Below are positions 2,229 through 34,304 of a DNA stretch of 64,000 nt, one piece after another. Under the pieces are notes generated by a model. That model did not search any database and was not told the origin of the DNA. It saw nothing but the letters and a program-made list of their open reading frames with translations. Both the position numbers and the translations under genes were made by a program. Numbering within the stretch: the stretch's first letter is position 1; each line of letters opens with the position of its first letter. Origin of the DNA: Cytophagales bacterium (lineage in GTDB: Bacteria; Bacteroidota; Bacteroidia; Cytophagales; 172606-1). Where the stretch lies: assembly GCA_030448185.1 (NCBI GenBank), contig JAUJNL010000019.1, forward strand, positions 18,369 through 82,368. Reading direction: 5' to 3'.

Positions 2229-5200
2229 ATGAAAAAGAACAAGTACTGCTTTGGGGAAACTCCCGCTATATTCCGGAGTCAGCAGTGGGTTGTCAGCACA
2301 ATCCTGCTGTTTTGGCTGATGGTAGCTACGTGGCCCATGTACGGGCAATCTTATGGGCCGGTGCTGACCCTTCACAATAGAAATCAGCAGGGTAATCAGC
2401 TCAATGTAATTATTCGGAACCAGCCACTACAGGTTATTCTGGAAGAGTTGGAGAAAAAAGCAGGCGTAGTGTTTGTGTACACTAATGACGAGGTGAACAC
2501 CAGCCAGAAAGCCTCTCTGATTGTCAGAAATCAGACTCTGGAAAGGGTGCTGGAAGAGCTGCTGGCGCCGCTGGGCATCGGGTACGAACAGATTAGTAAT
2601 AAGGTGGTTCTGACCGCTAGAAAGAATGGTTCCGGACGGATAAAGCGCGATAAATCAGGTAATTATGCCCCTGCTGGAACTACCATCCAAACCTCACTGC
2701 CCGAAGCTCAGGCGCTTACCGTAACGGGCCGGATTACCTCCGAAACCGGGCAGGCAATGGTCGGAGTAAGCGTTTCCGAGAAAGGTACCACCAACGGAAC
2801 GGCTACTGATGCCCAAGGCGGATACAAACTCACCGTGGCGGACGAAAAATCGGTCATCGTGTTCAGTTTCATTGGTTATACGCCCGAAGAAGTGGTGGTG
2901 GGTAATCGTACCGTAGTGGATATAACCTTAGTGCCGGATATTAAATCGCTGAGTGAAGTAGTCGTAGTGGGCTACGGAACCGTTAGAAAGAGTGATTTGA
3001 CGGGTTCGGTGTCCTCCATCTCCGCCGAGCAGATCAAGAAAACGGTAAACACTTCCCTGGATCAGGCCCTGGCCGGCCGGGCCGCTGGCGTACAGGTAAC
3101 CCAAACCTCCGGACAACCCGGGGGAGCCGTTTCCATCCGCATCCGCGGGGGCAACTCCATTAATGGCGGCAATGAACCGCTTTACGTAATTGATGGCTTT
3201 CCGGTGTATAACAATAATAATGAAACCAGTGCTGGGGCAAACCGTGGCCCTAATCTTAACGCCCTGGCCAGCCTGAACCCCAATGATATCGAATCCATTG
3301 AGGTACTCAAAGATGCTTCGGCTACGGCTATTTACGGTACGCGGGGCGCCAACGGCGTAGTTATTATTACCACCAAACGGGGCAAAGCCGGGCAGAATAA
3401 CATTGATTTTGAATCCTATTATGGAGTACAGCAGCCGCAGGGGCTCATCCCCATGATGAATGCCCGGGAGTACGCCCAGATGGTCAACGAAGGACGGGCA
3501 AATGATGGACTGGCGCCCTATTATACCGACGAACAGGTAGCCGCTTTCGGGGAGGGCACCAACTGGCAGAAGGAGCTGTTTCGTAATGCGCCGATTCAGA
3601 ACTACCAGCTTACCTTTTCCGGCGGCGATGCCAAGACCCGTTACGCCATTTCTACGAGTTATTTTGATCAGCAGGGCATTATTATAAACTCTGACTTCAA
3701 ACGTCTCTCCACCCGAATCAACCTCGACCGTAACCTGTCGGACCGTTTCCGGATTGGCAACAGCCTCACCCTCAGCCGTACTAAAGCCAACCAGGTAGTG
3801 ACGGATACGGACGGGGGAGGCAACACCGGCGTAGTACTGGGCGCTTTGCTGATGCAACCCACCTTGCCGGTGTACAACGCCGATGGGACGTACCTGCTGA
3901 GAAGTGACCTGGGTGAATTTGGCAACCCCATTGCGTACGCCAACGAACTGACCAATGAAAGTACTACTTACCGCGGTCTGGGAAATGTATTTGCTGAGTA
4001 TGATCTTATCAAAGACCTCACGGCCCGCGTGAGTTTCGGCGCAGACGTGCTATTCAATAAGGAAAATCTATACATTCCCTCCAACATTTTTGCCGGCGTG
4101 GCTACCAACGGTCGGGGCAGCGTAGCTTCGGCGCTCAATACCGTATGGTTGAATGAAAACACGCTGAGTTATAAGCATTCCTTTAATGAGCGGCATTCTA
4201 TTAATGCCGTGGCCGGATTTACCGTCCAAAACTCCCGTTCGGAATCGGTGCGGGCCAACTCGCAGAACTTTCCCAACAACATTCTGGGCGCTGATGATTT
4301 GGCTTCCGGCGCAACGCCCACTTTTCCGGCTACCGGGGCCCGCACCTGGGGTTTGGTTTCGTACCTGGGGCGGGTAAATTATAACCTGGCGGATAAGTAC
4401 CTGATCACGTTTACGGGTCGGGCTGACGGCTCGTCTCGCTTCGGCTCCGGTAACAAATACGCCTTTTTCCCCTCAGGGGCCGTAGCCTGGCGGCTGATTA
4501 ATGAGTCTTTTATGCAAAGCCAGAAGCTGTTTCACGACCTGAAGATCCGGGCCAGCGTGGGTATTACCGGCAACCAGGAAATCGGGCAGTTTCAGTCGCT
4601 GGCTACGCTTGATCCGGTTACGTACATCATCGGAAACCAGGTAGTAATCGGGTATACCCCCGGGCGGTTTGCCAACCCCAATCTGCGCTGGGAAAAAACG
4701 GCGCAGGCTGACGCCGGTGTAGACGCCGGTTTCCTGAAAGGAAGGTTTAATCTGACGGTTGATGCGTATTATAAGCAGACCAACGACTTGCTGCTGGCCG
4801 TGACCGTACCGTATACGTCGGGTTTTGCTACTTCCCTGCAAAACATCGGCCGGTCCGAAAACAAAGGTTTGGAAATCGGGGTAAATTCGGTGAACCTGGA
4901 AGGACCGTTGAAATGGACTACCGATTTCAATATTGCTTTTAACCGGAATAAGATACTCGACCTGGGGCAGATCAATGAGTTCTTTGCGGGCGGCAATTCT
5001 GGCCACCTTAAAGTAGTCAATCCCACGCTGATCCGGGTGGGACAACCTACCGGGCAGTTTTACGGATACGTGTCAGACGGTATCTTCCGGGACCAGGAAG
5101 AAGTAAACACATCGGCTCAGAAAACCGCCAAACCCGGTGACCGCCGCTATAAAGACCTCAACGAAGATGGTCGAATCACGGCCGACGACCGTACCTATAT

Positions 5201-5703
5201 TGGCAGTGCCCAGCCCAAGTTCATCGGCGGCATCACCAATACCTTCACCTTCAAAGGATTTGAGCTAAGTGTGTTTTTCCAGTACTCCTACGGCAACAAA
5301 ATTTTCAATTACAACAAGATCGAACTGGAACTGCCCGCCGGAATTCAGAATGTAAAAAAGGACCTGGTAAACCGCTGGTCACCTGACAACCCGGATGGGA
5401 AGTACCCCCGTGCCACTACCAACCGGACCATCGAATTCTCGGACCAGTACATTGAGGATGGTTCTTTTCTGCGGGCCCGCAATGTGAGCCTTTCGTATCA
5501 GTTGCCCCAGGCATTGGTCCAAAAATGCGTTTGCGGTCAGCAAGGGTGTACGTAAGCGGCCAGAACCTGTTTACCATTACCAACTACAGCGGTTATGACC
5601 CCGAAGTAAGCCGGTACGGACAAACCAACCTCAACATTGGCCAGGACTACGGTGGTATCCCCTGTCCCGCACCTTGCTGCTAGGCCTGAACCTGGGATTT
5701 TAA
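2229..5703 (+). CDS. SusC/RagA-type TonB-linked outer membrane protein with STN domain; C-terminus frameshifted
   Basis: CarboxypepD_reg-like domain, plug (SDLTGSVSSISAEQIKK), beta-barrel; the sequence after 5520 continues in another frame to ...LLGLNLGF*. Confidence 0.95.
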
Positions 5704-16152: not shown

Positions 16153-19100
16153 TTACTCTTTCACAATCTTCACTACCTGCTGGGCACGATGCGTATATAC
16201 TTTGAGCAGGTAGAACCGGCTGGGCAAGCCCCCCAGATTCAATTGGATTGACTGCTCCCCGTTCAGCATCGTTTCCGTTTCGAAATAGGTTTTGCGGCCC
16301 ATTACATCGTACACTTTAACCGTAACCGGCCCGGTCAGGGATTTGCTAAACTGAAGCGTTAATTGGTCCCGAACGGGGTTTGGCGAAACTGATACCTGCC
16401 AGGGTTGTCCTTCCGGATTGACTCCTTTCTGGCTGCCGGCCGCTGCTACCCGGGCCGTGGAAGCACCAGGTTGTGTCGTAACCAGGCTGAAGTTCACCGC
16501 ATACGCAGTGCCTGCTTCCATTTTTCCTCCTTTTTTGAAATAAGGAGTAGCCTTTACCAAATACTTCCCGTCCACTGGCTTCCAACCTTTCCCGACAGCA
16601 CCTTCATCCCCGAAAAGCTCGTAAGGCTGCTGGGTATCAGCAGCGTAAATTTCCTTCTCATTCAAGCTGAATTCTACTTTCACCATTCGGCGGGGACTTG
16701 TTTCGGCTTGGATATTCAGGTTCGTTGCAGCCGTCACGCCAAGGGCCGACAGATTAATTACGTCACCCTCCCGGATTTCGGTCAATACTTTGTTCTTGGT
16801 CACGTCTACCAGGAACAATTTAGCCACGGCTGGTTCGTCTACTACTTCAAAGGTTATTTCCTTCATGGCACCCGCGGCACCCTTTCCTTCTGCTTCCGTA
16901 TAAGGGGTAGCTTGTAACCGGTATTTTCCAACTTTCAGGTCGAAAGGCAGGTATTCAGAGCCTTGGTTAGTATCCCCAAACAAAGCATAGGGCAGGAAAT
17001 TTTCCGTCCGGTTCGCTTCCGTCTCCGGACCCGTAAAGTTAAACTTCACGCTGCCTACCTGCTGAGGAGCCGTTTCAGCCCGTATATTCACCTGTTTGCC
17101 GGGTAAATTCCGGAGGTTAATCACGTCATCTTCCTTAATTTCCCGCAGATCGGCAGCCGTTCGGGCATCAACCAATACCAAGCGATTGATTTTGGCGGAG
17201 TTTACGACTGTAAAAGAAATGGTGAGTGGAATACCAGCTGTTCCTTTGTCTGAAGCTTCGCTGTAAGGAGTAGCCGTAAGCGTAAACTCGCCTGCTTCCG
17301 GCGTCCAGGCCTGGTAATCACTATCGTTATTACCGGCTAATGCGTAGTACGCGAAATTTTCGGTACTGAAAACTTCGCTGTTCAATTGGAATACCACGCT
17401 GCCCACGGTATCCGGGCTCACATTGGCCCGGATGTTTAGGCGGGTGGTAGCCAGTTGGGCAAAATCAATAAGGGCGCCATCCTTCAGCGTAGTAATATCC
17501 TCATCCGTGTCGGCATTCACCAGCGTATAGCTAATTATGCTTTGTGGCTTGCTCACCCCGAAAATAGATGTCGTTCCGCTTACTTCATTGGCAACTACCA
17601 GCAGCGGCTGCCCATTGGGACTTTCCTTGGCATTGATAAATACCAAACCTTCCGGGCCTAAATCACCGGCCGTTCCGGCTTTCGGATCTCCCGCAAAATT
17701 GCGGTTATTGAAGTACTGCACAAACTGGGATTGATCCGGATGGGTTACGTCATAGACCATGATTCCGCCAATGCGTTCCAGTCCCACAAAGGCGTAGGTA
17801 CGGCCGTTGAGGGTTCCCGTGACCACGCCCTCCGGCTCGGGACCTTTGTCATCGCTGCGGACATCGAAATTATTGGCGTCGTTATTGGAATTGAAAAACT
17901 TCGGAAAATCAATGGCGGTAATTTTCTCAAATTCGTCGCCGCTATCGTATACCCGGTTGCCGTAGGCATCCCAGATGGTAAATGACCGTGCACCATAAGC
18001 GACCAATTGGTCATAATCCCCATCTCCATCGGTGTCCGCATCTATTTTCGAAACTGTCAGGCGACCCAACTGCTCCGGATTCTTGAGGGATGCATCCGGG
18101 AAGGCGGTGGGGTCCAGGTTCAGGCTACCTACTCTGGCATCCTCATTACGGACGTCGCCTTCGTTGGCCGTTACGTAATAGGTCTTGCCGTTGGCCTGGA
18201 AAGTAGCTACGGCATCAGGCATATAAGCGCCTTTTACGGGCCAGTTCTGCAAATTAATGCCATTGTCGCGGTCACTGGCATCGAGGGTATTGCCCTTTGA
18301 GAAGGTAATAATGCCTAACCCTACCGTGGCTAAGTCCGGTCCGTTTACGCCGAAATCGTTGTCGTTAATTACCGCCAGGGAACCATCCGGCAGTAGGGTA
18401 AGTCCTTCTACCTTGTCGCCGGGCAGGTACCCAATGGAAGGCAGATTCAGCACTTTGGTTTTCTTCACCGGCTTGATGCCCAGGGCTGCCAGTTCGTCCA
18501 CCGTAGATTGCTCCAGGGTTTTTCCGGCCGGTAAGGCGGGGGCTCCTGCCGCTAAAAGATTCGTGGCTCCTTTCAGGTCAAACTGGAAAATGTATTTTTT
18601 GTTCTCGGGCTTGGCTTCATCGTCCCGTTCGACGGCGTAGAAGGTTTTGGTTTTGGCATCGTAAGTGGCATCTCCCATTTTGTCTACGTTGGTCAGGCGC
18701 AGATTAGGCTTTTCCAGCACGTAGAGGTATTCGGCTACCGGCGTGCCATTTTCCGGGTTAATGCCTACGATCCGGATGATATTGGAATTATCCGAGGCGG
18801 CCCGGTTCGGATTGGCCAGCGGCGTCTGGATAAAGGCGTACAAAATGTTTTGCTCGGCATCCAGCGCCATCGCTTCGAATCCCCGGTTGGAACGCCGTTT
18901 GGCGTATTCGGCGGGCAGCGTTTCCTCGCCGTACGTTCCGGCAGGCTGGGCCGGACTGGCTAACGCAGCGGTTCCTTTGGGCACAAACCGGTTCAGCAGC
19001 ACACCGTCTTTCCCGAAGTGGTAAATGGCTGGGCGGTACTCGTCCACCATCCAGTACGAACCATCCTTAGCTACGGCAACTCCTTCCAGATCAGCGCCAA

Positions 19101-19761
19101 AAGGGTCGTAGGGCAAAAGATTACCCGCTTCGTCAATCGGTTTTTCGTCCACGCCGGGAATATTCGGGAAACCAGTAATGGCCTTTAATTGGTCACCGTC
19201 TTTCCGCTTCAGCGGCGTTTTCTCCAGAATGGAAATGGCGCCGGTGTTTTTGTCGAGAGCAAAACGAATCACTTCGGCTACGTAATCCGGCTTCAGGAAC
19301 GGGCGGCCATTGGGTGATTCTTCGCCGTTGGGACCACGGTCGGGTACGGTCACAAAAATGTACTGGCCATTTTCCTCTTTCTCGAAGAACAACCCCGACA
19401 AACCGCCGAACAGAATGGGATCACCGTTCTGCTTCTGACCGATGGCCGGTTCATTGAAATTATACTGCTTCAGTTGGGCTGGCCCGCGACTGTAATCTTT
19501 GTAGCCCAGCGGAATAATATCCACGAAACTGGCCTTGGGAATCTCCAGCACGGCAAAGGCATTGGCCTCCTGCAAAGTCACAAACGCAGTTTTACTATCG
19601 GGAGACACGGCAATGTACTCCGGTTCAAAGTCTTCAGTTACCCGCTTGCCGGGGAATACCCGTACGCCTTTGGCCCGCAACTCTTCTTCTTTGCCAACGT
19701 AAGCGTTAAAGGTTATGGTCGACACTTCTACCAATCCAAAGCCGAAGGTTAAATCAATCAT
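16153..19761 (-). CDS. C-terminal part of secreted phosphatase fusion: choice-of-anchor-I propeller split by a phytase/esterase-like domain, three ~100-aa repeats, T9SS type A sorting domain
   Basis: GVRVFPGKRVTEDFEPEYIAVSPDSKTAFVTLQEANAFAVLEI; GGLSGLFFEKEENGQYIFVTVPDRGPNGE; NEGDVRNEDARVGSLNLDP; C-terminal VSVSPNPVRDQLTLQFSK. Confidence 0.88.
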   Translation of the reverse strand: MIDLTFGFGLVEVSTITFNAYVGKEEELRAKGVRVFPGKRVTEDFEPEYIAVSPDSKTAFVTLQEANAFAVLEIPKASFVDIIPLGYKDYSRGPAQLKQYNFNEPAIGQKQNGDPILFGGLSGLFFEKEENGQYIFVTVPDRGPNGEESPNGRPFLKPDYVAEVIRFALDKNTGAISILEKTPLKRKDGDQLKAITGFPNIPGVDEKPIDEAGNLLPYDPFGADLEGVAVAKDGSYWMVDEYRPAIYHFGKDGVLLNRFVPKGTAALASPAQPAGTYGEETLPAEYAKRRSNRGFEAMALDAEQNILYAFIQTPLANPNRAASDNSNIIRIVGINPENGTPVAEYLYVLEKPNLRLTNVDKMGDATYDAKTKTFYAVERDDEAKPENKKYIFQFDLKGATNLLAAGAPALPAGKTLEQSTVDELAALGIKPVKKTKVLNLPSIGYLPGDKVEGLTLLPDGSLAVINDNDFGVNGPDLATVGLGIITFSKGNTLDASDRDNGINLQNWPVKGAYMPDAVATFQANGKTYYVTANEGDVRNEDARVGSLNLDPTAFPDASLKNPEQLGRLTVSKIDADTDGDGDYDQLVAYGARSFTIWDAYGNRVYDSGDEFEKITAIDFPKFFNSNNDANNFDVRSDDKGPEPEGVVTGTLNGRTYAFVGLERIGGIMVYDVTHPDQSQFVQYFNNRNFAGDPKAGTAGDLGPEGLVFINAKESPNGQPLLVVANEVSGTTSIFGVSKPQSIISYTLVNADTDEDITTLKDGALIDFAQLATTRLNIRANVSPDTVGSVVFQLNSEVFSTENFAYYALAGNNDSDYQAWTPEAGEFTLTATPYSEASDKGTAGIPLTISFTVVNSAKINRLVLVDARTAADLREIKEDDVINLRNLPGKQVNIRAETAPQQVGSVKFNFTGPETEANRTENFLPYALFGDTNQGSEYLPFDLKVGKYRLQATPYTEAEGKGAAGAMKEITFEVVDEPAVAKLFLVDVTKNKVLTEIREGDVINLSALGVTAATNLNIQAETSPRRMVKVEFSLNEKEIYAADTQQPYELFGDEGAVGKGWKPVDGKYLVKATPYFKKGGKMEAGTAYAVNFSLVTTQPGASTARVAAAGSQKGVNPEGQPWQVSVSPNPVRDQLTLQFSKSLTGPVTVKVYDVMGRKTYFETETMLNGEQSIQLNLGGLPSRFYLLKVYTHRAQQVVKIVKE

Positions 19762-19779
19762 AGAAACCGAGACTTCCAG

Positions 19780-21936
19780 TTACAGTGACGGGCCGAGTTC
19801 GCCTTCGTTGGCCACCAGCACGTGCCGGCCATCGGGAGTGAAGGTGAGCATATCAGGCAGGGCGCCAACGGGCACGGTATGCAGCGGGGCCACGGTTCCA
19901 TTAGCCAGATCGGAAGGGAAAAAGGTTACTACTCCCGGTGCCTGATTGCCAGCGGCATCTTTCTTTTCAACCGCTACGGCGACTAGTCCGTTTTTCACGG
20001 CTACGCTGTTGGGCGTACCTCCAGTCAATGCTTTTATATCAATGGCAAACAATTTGGTGGGTTTGGCCGGGTTTTGAATGTCGAGCACATCCACGGAACC
20101 GTTGGCATTGACCACGAAAAGCCGCTTGGTTTTGGGATCGTAGGCCGGTATTTCGGCGGTGCCGCCATCAAATACGCCAGTGGCATACGTTCCCAGTAAT
20201 TGGATATCCAGTCCTTGGGCCGTGCCGGCCGTGGTTGGCCGACCGGGAGCCGGCGCCGGCGTTTGGGTTTTACCGGGGCTTTCGGCGCCCGCCTTCTGCA
20301 ACCGGTTCTGCCCATCGAGGGTATAGTAGCCGGCGTCAAATTTTTCCGGACTGTTGGGCTTCAGAATGGTTTCTACGAAATACCAATCGGCCTGGGCCTT
20401 TTCGGGGGTTAAGTCGAGAATAAAATACCCGTGGCGGTCCAGGTCCACGTACTTCATGTGTGGATTCGGATTTACCCCGGCAAAAGGGCCTGCCTGTTCC
20501 GGCAGGGGTTTATTGATTTGGAATTCAAAACCCGCGGCACCCTGGGCATCCAGGTTTTCGTCGAAATTAGCCGAAGAAATACTGGGCGTGGCAAACTCTA
20601 CGGCTACTGAGCCGGCACCCGTGGCTGGGTTGTAATTGGGACCACCCTGACTGAAAGCAGATGGACGGGCAGCTACGTCAAAAGCGAAGGAGGAATGGAA
20701 GTCACCCGTCAGAATTACCGTGTTATCAATTTTATTTTGGGTGATAAAATCAATCACTCTCTGGCGTTCGGCGGGATACCCGTCCCAGATGTCCAGGAAA
20801 ATACTCTCCAGTTGCTGCGGCGTGCCCAGTTGCGGAGACGAGGCCCAACCCACGTTGAATTCGCTGAAAATAATCTGATTGCCGATAATTTTCCACTTGG
20901 CTTTTGAACTTTTCAACTTTTCAAACAGCCACTCCCGCTGCGTCTGGCCGAGCAGCGTCCGATCGGGGGCATACAGGGCCGGATTGGTTACGTCGTTGAT
21001 CTGCGGATCTCGTCCCTCGATCCGGGTGTCAATCATAATCAAGTCTACCAAGTCGCCGTAAGGCATTACCCGGTAAATGGGCATGGCGCTGCGGATGGGC
21101 ATCCATTCTTCGTACACCTGCCGGGAAACGTTTTTGCGGACGTCCCAGGAACCTTCGGTTTCGGGCTGGTGGTTTTGGGCGCCGTCTTTGTTGGCATCAT
21201 TCGCCGATTCGTGGTCGTCCCATACGGTAATGAACGGATGCTGCTGGTGCGCCCGGCGCAGATCAGGGTCCAGGCGGTAGTGGGCGTAGCGCTGCCGGTA
21301 ATCCTGCAAAGTTACAATCTCGTTCTTGGGTTGCACGGACCTTTCACCCGTAGTAAGTAAGCTCTTAGCCCCGTATTGTCCTTCGGCTTGCTCATAGATG
21401 TAATCTCCCAGGTGCACCACGGCGTCCAGGTCACTGCGGTCGGCAATGCGGCCAAACGCACTGAAATAGCCCCCTTCGTAGTTATTACAAGAGACCACGG
21501 CAAACCGCAGATGGGAAACGTCGCCAGTAGGAGTCGTTTTGGTCCGTCCGACCAGTGAGTTTTTACCCAGGGCTGTAAATCCGTAGTAGTACGCGGTATT
21601 GGCATTAAGCCCGGTTACGTCCACTTTCACGGTATAATCACGGTCGGCGTTGGTCGTGACGATGCCCGTACGAACCACCTGGGTCAGGCTGGGGTCAGTA
21701 GCTACTTTCCAGGTTACGGCTACGGAACCTTGTGATTCAGGCGTAACCCGCGTCCAGATAATGACCCGGTCGGCCATGGGGTCGCCGGAAGCAACGCCGT
21801 GGTAAAAAGGTTTAAGCGACTCATCGTAATGCTGGGCATAACCAGGCACGGACAATGACATCCAGAACAGCAGGCATAGACCAACGAGTCCTTGCCGCCA
21901 ACCCAAAGTTGGGCAAGTGAGTAAAACTTTGAACAT
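19780..21936 (-). CDS. PhoD-type alkaline phosphatase plus start of choice-of-anchor-I propeller; same frame as 16153-19761, separated by TAA
   Basis: FYHGVASGDPMADRVIIWTRVTPE; LGDYIYEQAEGQYG; VWDDHESANDA; then LQLLGTYATGVFDGGTAEIPAYDPKTKRLFVVNANGSVDVLDI. Confidence 0.9.
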   Translation of the reverse strand: MFKVLLTCPTLGWRQGLVGLCLLFWMSLSVPGYAQHYDESLKPFYHGVASGDPMADRVIIWTRVTPESQGSVAVTWKVATDPSLTQVVRTGIVTTNADRDYTVKVDVTGLNANTAYYYGFTALGKNSLVGRTKTTPTGDVSHLRFAVVSCNNYEGGYFSAFGRIADRSDLDAVVHLGDYIYEQAEGQYGAKSLLTTGERSVQPKNEIVTLQDYRQRYAHYRLDPDLRRAHQQHPFITVWDDHESANDANKDGAQNHQPETEGSWDVRKNVSRQVYEEWMPIRSAMPIYRVMPYGDLVDLIMIDTRIEGRDPQINDVTNPALYAPDRTLLGQTQREWLFEKLKSSKAKWKIIGNQIIFSEFNVGWASSPQLGTPQQLESIFLDIWDGYPAERQRVIDFITQNKIDNTVILTGDFHSSFAFDVAARPSAFSQGGPNYNPATGAGSVAVEFATPSISSANFDENLDAQGAAGFEFQINKPLPEQAGPFAGVNPNPHMKYVDLDRHGYFILDLTPEKAQADWYFVETILKPNSPEKFDAGYYTLDGQNRLQKAGAESPGKTQTPAPAPGRPTTAGTAQGLDIQLLGTYATGVFDGGTAEIPAYDPKTKRLFVVNANGSVDVLDIQNPAKPTKLFAIDIKALTGGTPNSVAVKNGLVAVAVEKKDAAGNQAPGVVTFFPSDLANGTVAPLHTVPVGALPDMLTFTPDGRHVLVANEGELGPSL

Positions 21937-33281: not shown

Positions 33282-34304
33282 TTGCCTTTTTCCTACGCCG
33301 ATACACTGAATCTGATTTCTAAACTGACACCCAAGCGGGTAAGGAACGGGCTTCAGGTAGTTTCCAGCTATTATTTTTCCCGTTTGACGGGCCGGGCCAC
33401 ACACTGGGGACTGCCAACCAGTATCTCCTTTGAACCAACTACGTCCTGCAACCTCCGCTGCCCTGAATGTCCCAGTGGACTGCGTTCTTTTACCCGCCCT
33501 ACGGGTATGTTGTCAGCTGATTTGTTTAAGCAAACCATTGACGAACTCCACCAGTCATTGCTTTACCTTACCTTTTACTTTCAGGGGGAACCTTATCTGC
33601 ATCCTGCGTTTCTGGAGATGGTGCAGTATGCTGCGGCAAAAAAAATTTACACCTCCACCTCTACCAATGCGCATTATCTGACGGACGCCAATGCCCGCAA
33701 GACAGTAGAATCCGGACTGGACCGGCTTATTATTTCCATTGATGGCACTACTCAGGAGACGTACCAGCAATATCGCATTGGGGGAAAACTCGAAAAAGTG
33801 CTGGAAGGGGTTAAAAATGTCATCCGTTGGAAAAAGGAATTAAAGTCGCAGACCCCGCACGTGGTGTTTCAGTTTTTGGTCGTGAAGCCCAACGAACACC
33901 AGATTGGGGAGGTTTATCAATTAGCCAGGCAATTAGGCGTGGATGCCGTCGGATTAAAAACGGCGCAGATTTACGACTACCAAAATGGCTCTCCGCTGAT
34001 TCCCAGTCTTAACCAATATTCGAGGTACCGGCAGGAAGCTGATGGCCGGTATTCCATCAAGAATCAGCTGCTCAGCCATTGCTGGCGGATGTGGCATTCC
34101 TGCGTAATTACCTGGGATGGCCTGATCGTGCCCTGCTGCTTCGATAAAGATGCCCATTACCGGTTGGGCGACTTGAAAACGGCTTCCTTTGCAAGCCAAT
34201 GGGCAAGTGAGCCCTACCGCAACTTTCGTCAAACCATCCTCCGCTCCCGCAGTGAAATAGAGATGTGCCGCAACTGCACCGAGGGCACTAAGGTCTGGGC
34301 TTAA
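33282..34304 (+). CDS. Radical SAM/SPASM domain protein
   Basis: ISFEPTTSCNLRCPECPSG (CxxxCxxC-like), C-terminal CVITWDGLIVPCCFDKDAHYRLGDL...CRNCTEG. Confidence 0.88.
   Translation: MPFSYADTLNLISKLTPKRVRNGLQVVSSYYFSRLTGRATHWGLPTSISFEPTTSCNLRCPECPSGLRSFTRPTGMLSADLFKQTIDELHQSLLYLTFYFQGEPYLHPAFLEMVQYAAAKKIYTSTSTNAHYLTDANARKTVESGLDRLIISIDGTTQETYQQYRIGGKLEKVLEGVKNVIRWKKELKSQTPHVVFQFLVVKPNEHQIGEVYQLARQLGVDAVGLKTAQIYDYQNGSPLIPSLNQYSRYRQEADGRYSIKNQLLSHCWRMWHSCVITWDGLIVPCCFDKDAHYRLGDLKTASFASQWASEPYRNFRQTILRSRSEIEMCRNCTEGTKVWA

Follow-up and report, generated by a model that had tools for sequence, protein, structure and literature searches.

A gene for a predicted PhoD phosphatase fused to a nested double propeller in a Cytophagales bacterium

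Introduction

In soils and waters, organic phosphate is a main source of phosphorus. The genes for PhoD, PhoX and phytase are commonly scored one by one in surveys. PhoD is a well-characterised phosphatase family. To our knowledge, phytase activity has not been established for the domains of family PF13449, and we know of no activity for the choice-of-anchor-I domain. The literature searched makes no mention of "choice-of-anchor I". Esterase-like phytases have been called "not well-characterized" (PMC11219571), and there are cyanobacterial Psip1 ORFs that carry an additional phytase-like domain (PMC11098088).

Here we describe a gene region of a Cytophagales bacterium in which a PhoD phosphatase, a choice-of-anchor-I propeller, a phytase-like domain and a type IX secretion system (T9SS) sorting domain are joined. 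The region lies in a window of 64,000 nucleotides, the whole stretch of DNA that was analysed (GenBank assembly GCA_030448185.1, contig JAUJNL010000019.1), for which a preliminary description had been made from the sequence.

Results

Domain organization of the gene region

The features of the region are as follows.

16153..21936, minus strand: entire gene region; a single reading frame (1,928 codons) interrupted by one stop
21936..19780, minus strand: first ORF, 718 aa
19761..16153, minus strand: second ORF, 1,202 aa
21835..21936, minus strand: probable Sec signal peptide read by eye, with hydrophobic LVGLCLLFWMSLSV followed by GYA (codons 1-34)
21535..21801, minus strand: PhoD_N, aa 46-134 (Pfam PF16655, 3.5e-31)
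20383..21504, minus strand: PhoD phosphatase domain, aa 145-518 (Pfam PF09423, 1e-108)
19483..20172, minus strand: choice-of-anchor I, first part, aa 589-818 (PF22494 profile 10-236, with one TAA inside; NF038117)
19780..19782, minus strand: in-frame TAA, codon 719 (DNA ...ctg TAA ctg...)
19696..19797, minus strand: anomalous patch around the stop, codons 714-747, about 100 bp, from codon-position comparison with relatives
18352..19413, minus strand: Phytase-like domain inserted in a choice-of-anchor-I loop, aa 842-1195 (PF13449, 1.6e-48)
17557..18318, minus strand: choice-of-anchor I, second part, aa 1207-1460 (PF22494 profile 228-488)
16471..17541, minus strand: three homologous repeats of about 115 aa (aa 1466-1580, 1581-1702 and 1703-1822)
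16162..16386, minus strand: T9SS type A sorting domain, aa 1851-1925 (PF18962, 3.8e-10; TIGR04183)

In Pfam searches the domains follow one another across the stop in the order PhoD_N, PhoD, N-terminal half of choice-of-anchor I, Phytase-like, C-terminal half, repeats and T9SS tail. The preliminary description had placed PhoD, a split choice-of-anchor-I domain and a T9SS domain in the same minus-strand frame, with a phytase-like insert at 18.4-19.4 kb, and Pfam bears out both the order and the position of the insert (18352-19413, PF13449). Its three homologous repeats are also present, with a length of about 115 aa rather than about 100 aa. The single frame of 1,928 codons that it reported is, however, broken by the TAA at codon 719 into ORFs of 718 and 1,202 codons. 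The stop falls within the first part of choice-of-anchor I and separates PhoD from the phytase-like insert, the repeats and the T9SS tail.

The PhoD assignment rests on several observations. PhoD_N scores 108 bits (cut-off 30) and PhoD 363.9 bits (cut-off 27) with the curated Pfam models, and the domain aligns to the solved PhoD structures 2yeq and 9uya. All of the PhoD motifs are present: SCNN (149-152), GDYIYE (177-182), WDDHE (239-243) and TGDFHS (410-415). Against the NCBIfam equivalog AlkPhosPhoDBac the PhoD half reaches 322 of 1000 bits, which is below the cut-off. The predicted PhoD activity is well supported by homology.

When the TAA is read as X, choice-of-anchor I is full-length in two pieces and scores 382 bits with Pfam (cut-off 32) and 545.6 bits with NCBIfam (cut-off 300). 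The Phytase-like match covers profile positions 2-284 of 284 at 166.5 bits, above the curated cut-off, and both models of the T9SS tail, PF18962 and TIGR04183, are above theirs. The three repeats have no match in Pfam. Related copies (LNIRA..SP..VGSV.F.L, 16471-17541 in the window) recur in many further proteins of the order, frequently as tandem arrays (for example in G035 and G076). No RNA elements were found at the locus.

Orthologues and the PhoD fusion

Intact orthologues are found in three relatives. Two are from the same genus: that of G002 has 1,933 codons and 70% identity, and that of G001 has 1,544 codons and the same layout without the phytase-like insert. The third, of 1,820 codons and 73% identity, comes from a MAG of another family of the order (G023), where it sits on a 14.6 kb contig whose binning is not certain. 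In G074 the components are encoded apart: the PhoD gene and the nested propeller gene (L007), with 60% and 63% identity, lie on different contigs. The preliminary description had named separate genes in relatives as evidence against a fused protein; the close relatives carry fused, intact orthologues, but the components are separate in G074.

The PhoD fusion was found only in the window gene, G002, G023 and G001, which means this genus plus a single MAG from elsewhere in the Cytophagales, and no further case was confirmed among the 396 genomes of the phylum searched. Candidate PhoD/choice-of-anchor-I fusions in G402, G688 and G710, from a further Bacteroidota family and suggested by match coordinates, were rejected, as their ORFs have unrelated N termini. 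The PhoD fusion is the rare and unusual part of the architecture.

Two other genes of the window have homologues beside these orthologues. A distant homologue (29%) of the TonB-dependent receptor gene at 2229-5552 lies directly downstream of the G002 orthologue (L063:10627-13647), and a 70% identical homologue of the radical SAM/SPASM gene at 33282-34301 lies about 1 kb downstream of the G023 orthologue (L064:8812-9822). The identities to G023 of 70% for the radical SAM/SPASM gene and 73% for the main gene suggest either that genes were transferred across families or that the contig is mis-binned.

Nesting of the phytase-like domain

The insertion point within choice-of-anchor I lies between IPLGYKD and NTLDASDRD. 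In G001 (L155, the 1,544-codon ORF) the host domain is continuous without the insert: IPLGTKDYRAEDDSLGLPGGSTLDASDRD. An AlphaFold model of the nested region of the intact G002 orthologue has a pLDDT of 92.8 and a pTM of 0.92, and the insert predicted alone has a pLDDT of 94.4. The Pfam coordinates, the confident model of the intact orthologue and the insert-less gene from the same genus show that the nesting is real. The preliminary proposal of nested domains stands, and the sequential arrangement that would have spoken against it was not borne out.

In a single tree of the host propeller made by a quick method, the nested state needs eight changes, compared with a mean of 28 for shuffled states. 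In this tree the insert-less G001 adjoins the nested G002 (support 97) inside a clade (support 99) whose other genes are nested. Because G001 is placed beside a nested gene within a nested clade, its lack of the insert is read as a secondary loss.

Distribution and partner domains of the nested module

Of 391 genomes searched within the order, six, including that of the window, contain a continuous nested match; one more match was cut by a contig end. A scan of 84,980 species genomes, followed by HMM parsing of the loci, gave 62 distinct nested sequences, window included, at the same junction. They come from six phyla: Cyanobacteriota, Bacteroidota, Pseudomonadota, Chloroflexota, Planctomycetota and, through one MAG so labelled, Verrucomicrobiota. 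Cultured organisms with a nested gene include Flexithrix dorotheae DSM 6795 (L066) and Agaribacillus aureus BMA12 (L067). With few exceptions, the two halves of choice-of-anchor I are separated by 8-16 residues where the protein is plain and by about 400-445 where it is nested. The architecture had been presented as unusual; this holds for the rare PhoD fusion but not for the nested propeller, which is widespread in bacteria.

In some Nostocales and one Pseudanabaena, choice-of-anchor I and the Phytase-like domain are sequential and not nested (L126, L133, L134, L135, L139, L142). A choice-of-anchor-I protein of Synechococcus elongatus was rejected as a nested precedent, since that genome contains no Phytase-like domain.

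The partners of the module were tabulated in 24 nested proteins, picked mostly by length and including several near relatives; with families overlapping within proteins, 5_nucleotid_C is present in 14, Exo_endo_phos in 12, RTX repeats in 12, a T9SS tail in 4, PhoD in 2 and Metallophos in 1. This recurrent association of nested modules with phosphoesterases favours a role in phosphorus acquisition and makes the PhoD example less novel. An extreme multi-phosphoesterase protein is a cyanobacterial one of 3,095 codons (L093:262-9546), in which Exo_endo_phos and a beta-propeller phytase are joined to two SurE matches, RTX repeats and the nested propeller. Two Phytase-like matches are found in it, one of them nested.

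Properties of the propellers

An alignment of the insert over 54 sequences has 49 invariant columns, many of them acidic or charged, and the motifs DRGPNG, GADLEG, DEYRP, NRGFE, DKxGDA, ERD, PEGL and NDNDF are conserved across six phyla. In a fold search with the insert, no solved phytase or PhoX was among the best 50 matches listed (TM-score ≤0.43 by query length). The closest listed folds are generic propellers, some of them calcium-binding, such as SMP30 and a Deinococcus protein. A search with the whole nested model matched two-propeller proteins of all kinds and was set aside as uninformative.

Two phosphoesterase activities had been predicted for the protein at the outset. That of PhoD is well supported, but the phytase-like one was over-read, given the poor characterization of the family (PMC11219571) and the lack of a phytase or PhoX among the listed folds.

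It is conceivable, if somewhat doubtful, that the propellers are non-enzymatic and the nested module is a scaffold that binds ligands or minerals, with PhoD as the sole catalytic part. Such a scaffold would agree with the generic and calcium-binding propellers closest to the insert, with a choice-of-anchor-I domain without characterised activity, and with the persistence of the protein without its insert in G001. Across six phyla, however, the acidic and charged motifs are strictly conserved, which seems to exceed the needs of a passive scaffold, and the recurrent fusion to phosphoesterases also argues against it.

The in-frame stop codon

The window gene is the sole interrupted copy, and the frame is open in G002, G023 and G001. 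The changes are concentrated around the stop. Within codons 714-747, 15 of the 48 first and second positions that are conserved in G002 and G023 have changed (31%), compared with 181 of 2,473 (7%) elsewhere, and 6 of the 11 G>T changes of the whole gene fall in this patch. In a 55-sequence alignment the window gene departs from near-invariant columns at 8 positions, and codons 719, 720 and 722 account for three of these. A frameshift in the patch was rejected, as the codon alignment to the relatives needs no indel there.

Differences to G023 at the three codon positions are 0.191/0.135/0.519 before the stop and 0.188/0.123/0.529 after it. Because these values are nearly equal and dominated by third positions, purifying selection appears to be the same on both sides. 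With the gene intact in three relatives and both halves equally conserved, the TAA most probably reflects either a local error in the consensus or a lesion that arose very recently, and not old decay.

We consider it unlikely that the TAA is genuine and the gene a pseudogene or split gene. The PhoD half would then lose its T9SS tail and stay periplasmic, and the second half would be unsecreted. In favour of this reading, the DNA shows the stop clearly, the patch is single-copy, with no second copy found in the genome (an assembly of 207 contigs, 75% complete), and three near-invariant residues are lost within four codons, as decay would do. The damage is, however, limited to about 100 bp; the 1,202 codons past the stop are still open and under the same constraint as the preceding ones; and outside codons 719-722 departures from near-invariant columns number 5, against 7 and 8 in the intact orthologues.

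Read-through of the TAA by recoding or suppression, giving a short and a long product, would fit the frame maintained across the stop but is very improbable, as the stop at codon 719 is absent from every orthologue, the flanking patch is itself abnormal, and other long genes of the genome are open (for example SprA, 2,394 codons).

Discussion

Taken as a whole, the locus is best explained as encoding a phosphorus-scavenging fusion secreted by Sec and T9SS, with the stop as an error or a very recent lesion, an account we hold to be reasonably probable. The protein would be exported by the Sec and type IX systems and is probably surface-attached, its C-terminal tail serving as the T9SS signal. 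Of the T9SS machinery, SprA is present in the genome (SprA_N, 512.7 bits). Outside the cell, the N-terminal PhoD domain would hydrolyse phosphate esters. The most likely role of the two-propeller module is to bind a second class of organic phosphate and to hydrolyse or present it, and the conserved acidic centre of the module may hold metal ions. The three C-terminal repeats may be spacer or adhesion domains. Against this account, no gene that points to phosphate metabolism was found among the neighbouring window genes scanned (TonB receptor, sulfatases, OsmC, ACT, acyltransferase, TerB). Phosphorus scavenging is our best guess for the role.

More tentatively, the nested double propeller may be a cross-phylum chassis for phosphorus scavenging, in which a metal-dependent hydrolase propeller sits inside another propeller and is repeatedly paired with unrelated phosphoesterases. 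One secreted polypeptide could then act on several classes of organic phosphate, and the PhoD version would be a rare form of this design.

Secreted proteins with chained phosphoesterases and nested propellers could be miscounted in surveys or named after a single domain. The G002 orthologue, with the insert, and that of G001, without it, make a natural pair for testing the role of the phytase-like domain.

Among known systems, Psip1-type ORFs resemble the window protein in combining a propeller-type phosphatase with a phytase-like domain (PMC11098088). Psip1 is, however, described there as a separate family, and that text does not mention choice-of-anchor I and is silent on nesting of the phytase-like domain. 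Nested choice-of-anchor-I/Phytase-like proteins from several groups, cyanobacteria, proteobacteria and Bacteroidota among them (for example those of Moorena, Okeania and Symploca, L069-L075, and Dokdonella, L079), share the same two propellers and the same insertion point at about 45-60% identity over the module. Unlike the window protein, they lack PhoD, and their partners are 5'-nucleotidase, Exo_endo_phos, SurE, RTX repeats, fasciclin, or none. The G074 pair has the components of the window protein, but as two genes on different contigs. With the PhoD alkaline phosphatases (PF09423/PF16655; 2yeq, 9uya) the window protein shares the full domain and the conserved motifs. Whereas PhoD normally stands alone, in this protein it is followed by a propeller module and a T9SS tail in one fusion.
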